From Sneathiella chinensis (GTDB taxonomy: Bacteria > Pseudomonadota > Alphaproteobacteria > Sneathiellales > Sneathiellaceae), in contig NZ_VNWN01000002.1 of NCBI RefSeq assembly GCF_012720115.1, forward strand, positions 186,001-250,000: a stretch of DNA of 64,000 nt. The letters are read 5' to 3'. Of the stretch, positions 11,864 to 32,553 are shown piece after piece; the first letter of the stretch is position 1; every line of letters begins with the position of its first letter. The notes under the pieces were generated by a model. The model was not told where the DNA came from and did not search any database. It saw only the letters and a list, made by a program, of their open reading frames with translations. Made by a program: the position numbers and the translations under genes.

Positions 11864-12833
11864 TCCTGTTCATATATTCATAATCCCGTGACGAGGTATG
11901 GGTTTCATAGGCCCGAAGGGCTGCTGCAGGCGCGGGGGCGGAGGCCTCTTTCGCAGTGGCAGATGGCTGGGTCACAGGCTCGGCCTTACGAGCGGGGCCG
12001 GTTGTCCCATTCTGGAAATGGCTGAGGATCTGGTGCATTTGCTGTTCGGTCAGGGCCTTGTCTTCCAGCGACTGAAGATGACCCAGACTGCGCCCAAGAT
12101 CAGGCGGTGGCCCTTTCCATTGCAACCCCATGGGAAGGGGGGCTGCGGGTCCGGTTTTGCTGTCAATGCCATCGTCCTCGGCCTCGGCCCCCGCCGCCAC
12201 CTGTTGGGCCGGGTGTGAAGCGGGTTGCGCCGCACCGACATCATCCGGAACAGGGACAATGGTGGCCCCTTTCGGGCCGAATGCGGCTGCCAGAGCGGCC
12301 AGATCCTGTGTCTTGATGGATGGGGGCTGCGAGGTCTCTTGCGGGCCTTGCCGGGCCATCTCCGGCTGCTTTGGGAGCGTTTCAGAGGTTGTATCCCCGA
12401 CTTCGACCGAGGCAGGATCGGCTTTGGCCAGAATATCGGTCGGTTCATCCGAGAACATCGCGAGGACATGATCACCCATATCCTTGCCGGTTTCACTTTC
12501 GATGGCTGTATTGACCACCGAGGCGGCAAACCCGACCACGCCGCCAAACAGGCCGCCGCCGATCATGCGGGACCCGGCACTGATCTCATCCCCGGTGACA
12601 TTCCGGTACAGGGAGGAAACCACGGGGATATGTTGCAGGGGATTGATGATGTCGAGAAAATCGTCGAAGCCGAACCCGTCCTTTCCGAACATGGAAAAGT
12701 CTGACGAACCATCCGCTGTTTTCGCAGGGCCGGACGGGGATGCCTCGGCCTGATAGCGGGGCATACCGGACAGCCCGGCGAAATTCCGGTCCAGATAGGC
12801 GTATGGGTCAGATGTAATAGGGCTAACCGACAT
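11856..12833 (-). CDS. Unrecognised 325-residue protein with glycine-rich hydrophobic segment
   Basis: I do not recognise a named family. The N-terminal third contains a globular-looking part (GFDDFLDIINPLQHIPVVSS followed by LYRNVTGDEIS) and then a glycine-rich apolar segment around residues 90-115 (RMIGGGLFGGVVGFAAS) that could insert into a membrane as a glycine zipper. The C-terminal two thirds are Pro/Ala/Gln-rich and probably disordered, ending with DYEYMNRTI. There is no signal peptide. The order of a conserved head and a low-complexity tail resembles hypothetical proteins seen in other Rhodospirillales, which is recollection rather than proof. Coding is supported by composition and by a conserved-looking N-terminus. 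Confidence 0.65.
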   Translation of the reverse strand: MSVSPITSDPYAYLDRNFAGLSGMPRYQAEASPSGPAKTADGSSDFSMFGKDGFGFDDFLDIINPLQHIPVVSSLYRNVTGDEISAGSRMIGGGLFGGVVGFAASVVNTAIESETGKDMGDHVLAMFSDEPTDILAKADPASVEVGDTTSETLPKQPEMARQGPQETSQPPSIKTQDLAALAAAFGPKGATIVPVPDDVGAAQPASHPAQQVAAGAEAEDDGIDSKTGPAAPLPMGLQWKGPPPDLGRSLGHLQSLEDKALTEQQMHQILSHFQNGTTGPARKAEPVTQPSATAKEASAPAPAAALRAYETHTSSRDYEYMNRTI

Positions 12834-12999
12834 TTTTTTCTCCTCGCCGTTATATAAGCAAGGACCGTGCCATTATTTTATGGCGCAATATCAAGTGGTT
12901 AGAATGTCATGCACCGGACCCCTTCGGCAGGCCGGAATTAATTTCCGGGAAAAACCTGCCCGCTTGGGAAAGGGCCGTACCCCTTACAGGCGGCCTGTC

Positions 13000-30137: not shown

Positions 30138-31649
30138 TCAGTCGGCTGTGTGGATCGGCAGGTCCAGCAGGGCCCGACGACGCAGCCACTGGCTGGGACG
30201 ATAGCGTTCCTCGCCGGTGATTTCCTGCAGGGATTCCAGAATTTGCAGGGTGTTCTTCGCGCCCATGAAATCGGCCAGTTCCAACGGTCCATGCGGATAG
30301 TTGAGACCAAGTTTCATGCCCTTGTCGATATCTTCCGGGGTTGCCACCTGGATCTGGGCCATTTCACAGCCAAGATTGGCGACCATGGCGCGGATCCGCT
30401 GGGCGACGAAGCCGGGGGAATCCTTGACCCGTGTGACGGAAGCGGAATTCTGACGGATGGCGGCCATCACACCGGCAACCACCGCATCATCCGCACCCGG
30501 TGCGGCCATGACAGTGGTGTGGGTATGGGTGCCGGTCAGCATGTCGATGGCGACAAGACGCTTGGCATCCAGACGCAGGCGGATGGCAAGGGCGGTACAG
30601 TCCTCACCGACCGGGGCGGCCAGAATGGGGCTTGTGCCATCGTCGGTGGACAGGATGGTGACACCGATATCCCGGAGCAGGGCTTCAAGGTCCGAATTGG
30701 GTTCGGCCAGATAGGCGCTCTTGATCGGGGCGACGGCTTCCGGTTTTGACAGCTCCGGACGGATGATGTTTCCATCGGCGTCATAGTCATAGAAACCGGC
30801 CTTGGTCTTGCGGCCCAGACGCCCGGCTTCCATCATGCTTTCATGCAGCGGATAGGTGGACAGGCGCTTGTCCTGGAAATAGCCGTTATAGATGATCTGG
30901 CTGACCGGGAAGTTCACATCGATGCCGGTCAGGTCCATCAGTTCGAACGGGCCCATGCGGAAACCGCAGGCATCGCGCATGATGGCGTCCACCTCATGCG
31001 GCTCGGCAATCCCTTCAGAGACAATGCGCAGGCCTTCGGTGGTGTAGGCACGGCCGCCCAGATTGACGAGGAAGCCCGGCGCGTCCTTGACCACGACAGG
31101 GACCCGGCCCATGCGCTTGCCAATGATTTCGAGGGCCTTTGTGGTCTCGGCGGAAGTATCGGTACCGTTGATGACCTCAACCAGTTTCATCAGCGGAACC
31201 GGGTTGAAGAAATGCAGGCCGGCAATGCGGTGGCGCCGCTGAACGGCAGAGGCGATGCTGGAAATCCGGATGCTGGAGGTGTTGGAGGCGATGATGGTAT
31301 CTTCGCGGACAACGGCCTCGATCTGCTGGAAAACCTTTTGTTTGATGTCGATATTTTCAACAATGGCTTCAACGACAAGATCACAATCGGCGAAATCATC
31401 GAGGGTCTTGGCGACGGAAAGGCGGGAAATGGCGGCGCTGGCGTCTTCGGCGCTCATCCGGCCTTTTTCGGCGGCGCGGTTCACCATGGAGGCGATATAA
31501 TCCGTTGCGGCCGCGGCGGCACCGTCTGCCGCATCGAAAATAATGGCGTTCATGCCACCGGTAACTGAAACCTGTGCAATACCGCGTCCCATTGCACCGG
31601 CACCTACGATCCCGACCTTGAGGGAGGGTTTATTGGGGTCGATCGTCAT
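30138..31649 (-). CDS. 3-hydroxyacyl-CoA dehydrogenase (PaaH-like)
   Basis: A 503-residue NAD-dependent dehydrogenase that oxidises 3-hydroxyacyl-CoA in beta-oxidation or aromatic (phenylacetate) degradation. The Rossmann motif is VGIVGAGAMGRGIAQ at the N-terminus; the catalytic His is in GLHFFNPVPLMKLVEVI with Glu in VVEAIVEN. Two C-terminal HCDH domains follow, the second ending around MKLGLNYPHGPLELADFMGA, which gives the about 500-residue length of the PaaH/PaaC class rather than the short FadB2 type. It stands alone; no paa genes are near, so a general beta-oxidation role is equally likely. Confidence 0.92.
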   Translation of the reverse strand: MTIDPNKPSLKVGIVGAGAMGRGIAQVSVTGGMNAIIFDAADGAAAAATDYIASMVNRAAEKGRMSAEDASAAISRLSVAKTLDDFADCDLVVEAIVENIDIKQKVFQQIEAVVREDTIIASNTSSIRISSIASAVQRRHRIAGLHFFNPVPLMKLVEVINGTDTSAETTKALEIIGKRMGRVPVVVKDAPGFLVNLGGRAYTTEGLRIVSEGIAEPHEVDAIMRDACGFRMGPFELMDLTGIDVNFPVSQIIYNGYFQDKRLSTYPLHESMMEAGRLGRKTKAGFYDYDADGNIIRPELSKPEAVAPIKSAYLAEPNSDLEALLRDIGVTILSTDDGTSPILAAPVGEDCTALAIRLRLDAKRLVAIDMLTGTHTHTTVMAAPGADDAVVAGVMAAIRQNSASVTRVKDSPGFVAQRIRAMVANLGCEMAQIQVATPEDIDKGMKLGLNYPHGPLELADFMGAKNTLQILESLQEITGEERYRPSQWLRRRALLDLPIHTAD

Positions 31650-31723
31650 TGTTTTTTATTTCCTTCTTTTGGGTGTTCCAAGTTTCGCGCTGCATCCTGC
31701 CTTCTGAAAAAGGAAAGAGCAAC

Positions 31724-31752
31724 CTTGATGACGCGCATAAGGCAACCTAAAT
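31724..31752 (+). promoter_or_regulatory. Sigma-32 (RpoH)-type promoter of hsp20
   Basis: CTTG (31724-31727), 18 bases, then CCTAAAT (31746-31752). This fits the alphaproteobacterial RpoH pattern CTTG-N17/18-CYTATnT with one mismatch. It lies 87 bp before the hsp20 ATG, which fits a heat-shock gene. Confidence 0.72.
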
Positions 31753-31759
31753 TATGATT

Positions 31760-31839
31760 AGAAACAGTGCCAGACCGGGCTGTTTCCCGGATGCCGGTTA
31801 TCGGATTCGAAGTTGCTCGCTCAATAGAGGAGATCGCGT
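31760..31839 (+). promoter_or_regulatory. Candidate ROSE-type RNA thermometer in the hsp20 leader
   Basis: The roughly 80-nt leader predicted from the RpoH-like promoter contains hairpin CCGGG/CCCGG (31775-31779 with 31786-31790), a small CCG/CGG hairpin, and then TTGCT (31813-31817) able to pair with the Shine-Dalgarno AGGAG (31828-31832). UUGCU against AGGAG with a central G-G opposition is the hallmark of ROSE elements, which mask the ribosome site at low temperature. Leader length and the downstream small heat-shock gene also match. Confidence 0.68.
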
Positions 31840-32298
31840 ATGCCTCGCGTATCCATGTTTAACAGCCCACATTTGCTGGGTTTCGATCATTTCGAGCATA
31901 TGCTCGACCAACTCTCCAAGTCCGGTGGGGACGGCTATCCTCCCTATAACATCGAACAGGTTGCTGATAATCACCTCAGAATTTCCCTGGCGGTGGCCGG
32001 ATTTAATGAGGAAGACCTGAAGATAACACTGGAACAAAACCAGCTAATCATTCATGGTAAGCAGAAGGAAGATACAGGGCGCGTATACCTGCACCGTGGT
32101 ATTGCGGCACGCCAGTTCCAGAAAAAGTTTGTTCTGGCCGAAGGCGTGGAGGTATCCGGCGCCGAGATGAATAATGGAATGTTGCATATTGATCTGAACC
32201 TGCCGTTGCAGTCCAAGGACGTGACCCGCATTCAGATCAAGACCGGGGGACAATCCCGGGGCATGAAAACCATCGGTTCATCGGAAACAGTAGAGTGA
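31840..32298 (+). CDS. Small heat-shock protein, Hsp20 family
   Basis: A 152-residue IbpA-like holdase that binds unfolding proteins and hands them to other chaperones. The N-terminus (MPRVSMFNSPHLLGFDHFEH) is the IbpA-type start; the alpha-crystallin domain spans about residues 35-130 and includes ISLAVAGFNEEDLKITLEQ and YLHRGIAARQFQKKF, with GVEVSGAEMNNGMLHIDL. The expected C-terminal IXI-type motif is not obvious. A ROSE-like leader and RpoH-type promoter lie upstream. The DUF1150 gene follows, a usual alphaproteobacterial partner. Confidence 0.93.
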   Translation: MPRVSMFNSPHLLGFDHFEHMLDQLSKSGGDGYPPYNIEQVADNHLRISLAVAGFNEEDLKITLEQNQLIIHGKQKEDTGRVYLHRGIAARQFQKKFVLAEGVEVSGAEMNNGMLHIDLNLPLQSKDVTRIQIKTGGQSRGMKTIGSSETVE

Positions 32299-32334
32299 TC
32301 CTTGTCGGATCAGTCGGTTTAGAGGAGTAGTGTG

Positions 32335-32553
32335 ATGCAGTATCAACAAACCGTTCTTCGCCAGATCAGCCCTGCGGCGCTTGCTGTTCTGGGCTCCATG
32401 GATATGGCTTATATCCGTAAGGTTGAGGAAGACGGAACCGAACTCTATGCCATTTTTTCTGCGGACGGCCATCGTCTTGGCGAGGAAGAAAGCATTGAAG
32501 TGGCGCAGATTGTCAGCCGCCAGAACGATCTTGAGGCCTTTCTGGTCAACTGA
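32335..32553 (+). CDS. DUF1150 family protein
   Basis: A 72-residue protein typical of the alphaproteobacterial DUF1150 family, commonly found next to ibpA-type genes. It reads MQYQQTVLRQISPAALAVLG then MDMAYIRKVEEDGTELYAIF, with an acidic C-terminal part (GEEESIEVAQIV). AGAGGAG at 32321-32327 sits seven bases before the ATG at 32335, which decides the start over a GTG at 32332. It is 36 bp after hsp20 and probably co-induced. Function unknown. Confidence 0.88.
   Translation: MQYQQTVLRQISPAALAVLGSMDMAYIRKVEEDGTELYAIFSADGHRLGEEESIEVAQIVSRQNDLEAFLVN

Follow-up and report, generated by a model that had tools for sequence, protein, structure and literature searches.

Translation of hsp20, a gene of Sneathiella chinensis encoding an IbpA-type small heat-shock protein, may be gated by temperature, and the question raised by this locus is whether its 5' leader is an RNA thermometer. 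A first-pass annotation of the DNA analysed here, a stretch of 64,000 nucleotides that we refer to as the window, had proposed a ROSE-type element in which TTGCT (31813-31817) pairs with the Shine-Dalgarno (SD) bases AGGAG (31828-31832) through a G-G opposition, with further hairpins upstream. Both motifs are present between a promoter-like pair of elements and the hsp20 start codon (Table 1). The encoded protein is 44% identical to E. coli IbpA. We compared the locus with 101 non-redundant alphaproteobacterial leaders drawn from tblastn relatives in genomes across the class. The DUF1150 gene lies directly downstream of hsp20; a homologue follows on the same strand, within 900 nt of the hsp20 start, at 79 of the 101 related loci, and the spacing between SD and start codon is mostly 6-11 nt in the orthologues. 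The DUF1150 product is a possible chaperone partner.

Table 1. Features of the hsp20 locus (window coordinates; bulged G in square brackets)
Feature	Position	Strand	Sequence or evidence
3-Hydroxyacyl-CoA dehydrogenase-type gene	30138-31649		Upstream of hsp20, divergent transcription
Heat-shock (RpoH-type) promoter-like element	31724-31753	+	CTTGATG (31724-31730), then CCTAAATT (31746-31753)
Hairpin I	31761-31786	+	GAAACAGU[G]CC AGACC GG GCUGUUUC; bulged G31769; stem of 8 bp below the bulge, CC/GG above it
Hairpin II	31788-31809	+	CGGAU[G]CC GGUUAUC GG AUUCG; bulged G31793
Hairpin III, candidate SD-masking thermosensor	31816-31832	+	CUC[G]CUC AAUA GAG GAG; bulged G31819; MFE and centroid
Shine-Dalgarno GAGGAG	31827-31832	+	Ends 7 nt ahead of the ATG at 31840
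hsp20 (IbpA-type small heat-shock protein), 152 aa	31840-32298	+	Pfam PF00011 HSP20, 64.6 bits
DUF1150 gene, probably the second of the operon	32332-32553	+	Pfam PF06620, 29.4 bits (cut-off 25)

The pair of elements formed by CTTGATG and CCTAAATT would fit an alphaproteobacterial RpoH promoter. CTTGATG was followed by a -10-like element 11-17 nt downstream in all 20 same-genus leaders tested, and two homologues of RpoH are encoded in the genome (408 and 289 bits). A generic sigma-70 promoter scan gave no result, as expected if the promoter is of the heat-shock type; a heat-shock sigma-factor promoter is typical of the ROSE-like class, without strictly defining it. Transcription would then start near 31760, giving a leader of about 80 nt (31760-31839) with three hairpins.

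ROSE elements mask the SD with a U(U/C)GCU motif in the 3'-proximal hairpin (PMC3669281), and their definition includes a G within the SD helix that is bulged or faces another G (PMC11342760). The minimum-free-energy (MFE) and centroid folds both paired the two CUC triplets of hairpin III (31816-31818 and 31820-31822) with GAGGAG, leaving G31819 bulged; the ROSE motif within it is UCGCU (31817-31821). At 37 C this register (C31816-C31822 with G31827-G31832) had a probability of 0.57, versus 0.22 for the register of the first-pass annotation, UUGCUC/GAGGAG, in which G31815 stands opposite G31830. The SD is sequestered in either register, so the proposed masking stood while the exact pairing shifted, and the G-G opposition was retained in the minor register but replaced by a bulge in the MFE structure. 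The annotation had named the lack of a stable pairing between 31813-31817 and 31828-31832 as grounds for rejecting the thermometer; taken literally this is nearly the case, since the MFE and centroid structures use 31816-31822. The TTG at 31813-31815 is private to this leader, same-genus orthologues mostly carrying NNACTCGCTC, and CTCGCTC is invariant or nearly so among the same-genus leaders. In the 64-kb window CTCGCTC-N3-9-GAGGAG occurs once, against 0.01 expected. Hairpin III became more stable when the bulged G was deleted in silico (-8.2 instead of -4.4 kcal/mol), in line with the lowered heat induction seen on deletion of the bulged G from the Providencia stuartii oppF element (PMC11342760). 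The MFE of the whole leader was not unusual (z -0.30).

The pairing recurs throughout the orthologue set, in counts that are not independent because the 101 leaders are related by descent. UYGCU precedes the SD in 92 of them (shuffled mean 5.3, maximum 13), and 91 show an exact pairing with the SD made up of 3 bp, a bulged G and 3 bp (shuffled mean 7.3, maximum 13), with the bulged G retained in all 91. Uninterrupted 6-bp pairing with the SD was not enriched, occurring in 11 of the 101 leaders versus 17 in the shuffles. While 66 of the 91 paired leaders have exactly CTCGCTC/GAGGAG, the remainder include compensatory variants: CCUGCUC/GAGAGG (L067, L075), GUCGCUU/GAGGAC (L071, L082) and CUCGCUU/AAGGAG (L029). 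These changes are scarce, and common ancestry accounts for some of them, leaving perhaps three events. Hairpin III is almost unvarying in a 46-leader alignment fitted to a covariance model, so that its covariation rests on these approximately three independent changes outside that set.

Seven Acetobacteraceae leaders (L043, L045, L060, L068, L073, L077 and L083, from Roseomonas, Belnapia, Asaia and relatives) have an anti-SD that has drifted to CTTCGCTC or CGCTCC, and one upstream bulged-G hairpin or none that was recognised; they may represent a lineage-specific thermometer variant. Elsewhere in the genome a degenerate anti-SD/SD pattern gave 17 other matches versus 28 in a reversed control, which is chance level. 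The window contains a second UYGCU-before-SD arrangement on the minus strand at 12833-12858 (CTTGCTTATATAACGGCGAGGAG; 10-nt loop), ahead of an ATG; this arrangement is probably a coincidence, given the chance-level frequency of the pattern across the genome.

The upstream hairpins claimed by the first-pass annotation are also present, and they covary. Hairpins I and II share a common design, a stem topped by a U-G, C-G or U-A pair followed by a bulged G and a loop-closing CC/GG (Y[G]CC/GGR). A MAFFT alignment of 21 leaders misaligned hairpin II owing to differences in loop length, and a covariance-model alignment was therefore used for counting; as such an alignment leans towards its own structure, alignment-free counts were added. 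In the model-fitted alignment of 46 leaders, the covariation score was 0.367, versus 0.160 for shuffled and 0.050-0.091 for slid alignments, and 14 of the 22 pairs had changed on both sides. These comprised 8 of the 10 pairs of helix 1 (hairpin I), in which 94% of cells were paired, and all 6 pairs of helices 2 and 3 (hairpin II). With hairpin III hardly varying in this alignment, it is hairpins I and II that the covariation supports. Counted without an alignment, at least one Y[G]CC/GGR hairpin is found in 85/101 leaders against about 7 (maximum 14) in shuffles, and at least two in 20/101 against 0.2. The pair adjoining the bulged G is U-G 51 times, C-G 38 times and U-A 13 times over the 101 leaders. 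The same bulged G occurs in the first hairpin of the Rfam families RF00435 and RF02523, in the leader of the genome's second ibpA-like paralogue and in E. coli ibpA. The function of the 5' hairpins of such leaders has been described as not fully understood, and thermoregulation in Pseudomonas survives the deletion of hairpin I (PMC3669281). Hairpins I and II may act as a scaffold for folding or as another site of recognition.

We then asked how specific this structure is and whether it belongs to a known family. A covariance model built from six relatives, with the window left out, matched the window leader at 49.5 bits (E 1.7e-10 in 80 kb), with no second match in the 64-kb window; its end-to-end alignment to the leader of E. 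coli ibpA scored 14.6 bits (E 0.07). A model that included the window had a single match in the 3.5-Mb genome at 71.2 bits (next 15.4). Across 142 genomes of the class the same model, whose sensitivity is low outside the genus, gave 13 matches, and all ten loci examined, the window's included, lie directly ahead of an orthologous hsp20. A scan with the Rfam ROSE models, which the first-pass annotation had put forward as a check, gave no such match: none to RF00435, RF01832 or RF02523 over the whole window at the gathering thresholds, and none to a ROSE family in 31650-31900 even at E<=10. Among the orthologue leaders scanned with these models, the best score was 30.9 bits to RF02523 (L007), with another weak match to that family at 25.9 bits (L110), against a gathering cut-off of 43. 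By Rfam criteria the leader falls outside RF00435, RF01832 and RF02523. It nevertheless has the features that define the ROSE-like class in the literature: U(U/C)GCU imperfectly paired with the SD, a bulged G in the SD helix, and three hairpins ahead of an HSP20 gene, small heat-shock genes of the class having two to four in their 5' UTR. Taken together with the missed Rfam thresholds, these features point to a divergent ROSE-like element, whose layout is nearest to ROSE_3 and E. coli ibpA, plus an extra 5' hairpin.

A close parallel is E. coli ibpA (RF01832, ROSE_2), likewise a small heat-shock gene, which scores 100 bits with Rfam ROSE_2 and has the same 3'-proximal hairpin of CUC[G]CUN, a 4-nt loop and NAGGAG: its SD hairpin folds as CUC[G]CUG AUUU CAGGAG, compared with CUC[G]CUC AAUA GAGGAG in the window. 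The middle hairpin of E. coli differs from that of the window in lacking the Y[G]CC/GGR form. The E. coli leader (NC_000913; L155 1424-1533, minus strand) opens with a C[G]CC/GGG hairpin (AGGACGC[G]CCUGAUGGGUGUUCU; AGGACGCGCCTGATGGGTGTTCT), which Rfam ROSE_2 omits because the model starts downstream of it. In the RF02523 ROSE_3 consensus a bulged-G hairpin (GAUGCCGAAgUCGGGUC) is followed by ACUcGCuGA..UCaGgAG, as in the layout of the window leader, which has an additional 5' hairpin. The rhizobial RF00435 (ROSE1 type), which also regulates small heat-shock genes, has the same bulged G before CC/GG in its first model hairpin, but its UUGCU hairpin is long and extends past the start codon, whereas hairpin III has 6 bp and leaves the AUG outside. 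Pseudomonas ibpA thermometers, with a leader of 61-62 nt and proven in vivo, resemble the window in their short U(U/C)GCU SD hairpin, stable 5' hairpin and sigma-32 promoter, but these gammaproteobacterial leaders have one upstream hairpin where the window has two (PMC3669281). Ahead of the other ibpA-like paralogue, same-genus genomes contain a classical ROSE-type leader that scores up to 40.7 bits with RF00435, below its cut-off of 45. In the genome studied here, the leader of this second ibpA-like hsp20 (L002 1918-2027, minus strand; G000:C14 near 266340-266450) contains ATTGCTCTATAGGAGGAT at the SD, along with two hairpins of the Y[G]CC/GGR form. Genomes of this genus thus tend to carry two different ROSE-type leaders.

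These results uphold ROSE-type SD masking ahead of the ibpA-type hsp20, through the 91 paired leaders, the stem covariation, the match of the leave-one-out model and the E. coli ibpA geometry. Judged from sequence and its conservation, we consider it highly likely that the 5' leader of hsp20-DUF1150 (31760-31839) is a ROSE-like RNA thermometer, and it is very probably a real temperature switch of a known type that the Rfam cut-offs miss. The strongest argument that temperature would gate hsp20 translation is that the SD hairpin is identical in geometry to a proven thermometer, that of E. coli ibpA, and shares its gene context. Folding at 25 and 42 C, which the first-pass annotation had suggested, did not bear out a melting transition: in a ViennaRNA temperature series the SD was about 85% paired throughout 25 to 50 C. 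As a yardstick, the E. coli ibpA SD folded in the same way was unpaired with a probability of 0.06 at 25 C and 0.14 at 42 C. Since this proven element behaves much alike, the temperature folding is uninformative. The nearly flat predicted accessibility of the SD would also fit a constitutive hairpin that merely lowers hsp20 translation, with no response at physiological temperatures. We regard this as very unlikely, as the prediction is nearly flat for the E. coli thermometer too, and the weakening bulge has been kept across leaders in which uninterrupted pairing is not enriched. Still more improbable, in our judgement, is that CUCGCUC owes its conservation to its sequence, perhaps as the target of a small RNA or protein, its pairing with the SD being incidental. 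The motif is near-invariant across the class, as the 66 exact pairs attest, but where it does vary its partner changes along with it and the bulged G is kept (the five compensatory leaders above), and the E. coli hairpin shows this geometry with an inner end of CUG/CAG.

An alternative with more in its favour, though we think it rather unlikely as the main role, is that the leader is chiefly a site of autorepression, bound by Hsp20 until the protein is titrated by aggregates, with temperature acting indirectly. Gammaproteobacterial IbpA represses its own translation via the 5' UTR, the E. coli protein binds to the 5' UTR of its own mRNA, R93 is required, and R93 is reported to be common in alphaproteobacterial IbpAs as well (PMC10474464). 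R91 and Y33 of Hsp20 align with R93 and Y34 of E. coli IbpA, and R93 equivalents (GI[AS]xRxF) are found in 100/101 orthologues and YPPYN in 101/101. The bulged-G hairpins, moreover, are conserved even though their Pseudomonas counterpart, hairpin I, is dispensable for thermoregulation (PMC3669281). Autorepression alone, however, leaves the conserved masking of the SD unexplained, and we found no binding data for alphaproteobacterial proteins. Both mechanisms coexist in E. coli, which makes autorepression an addition to a thermometer rather than a replacement for one. Given the conserved bulged-G hairpins, the R93 and Y34 equivalents and the binding of E. coli IbpA to its own 5' UTR, dual control, by temperature and by the level of chaperone, is plausible. 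A more specific version, which we put forward as a speculation more likely wrong than right by a wide measure, is that the Y[G]CC...GGR hairpins, with their fixed bulged G two pairs from the loop, are more than scaffolds and form a recognition module conserved from alphaproteobacteria to E. coli ibpA, a docking site for small heat-shock protein feedback, such that the leader would integrate temperature (hairpin III) with free chaperone (hairpins I and II).

Returning to the ROSE-like thermometer, we infer a mechanism that covers the transcription start, melting in vivo, its effect on translation and the role of the upstream hairpins. On heat shock, the RpoH-type promoter would produce the hsp20-DUF1150 transcript. 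At normal growth temperature, hairpin III would pair the whole SD with CUCGCUC around the bulged G31819, and binding of the 30S subunit would be blocked; on warming, the bulge-weakened hairpin would open and translation could start. The two stable upstream hairpins, each with its bulged G, would act as the scaffold or recognition site considered above. Beyond this locus, the data suggest that ROSE-like thermometers falling below the Rfam cut-offs are present in a broad set of alphaproteobacterial hsp20 leaders, among them those of Sneathiella, Thalassospira, Azospirillum and Magnetospirillum. The analysis supplies a seed alignment for a covariance model of these leaders, and it brings to light a bulged-G hairpin, strongly conserved and covarying, that lies upstream of the putative sensing hairpin.
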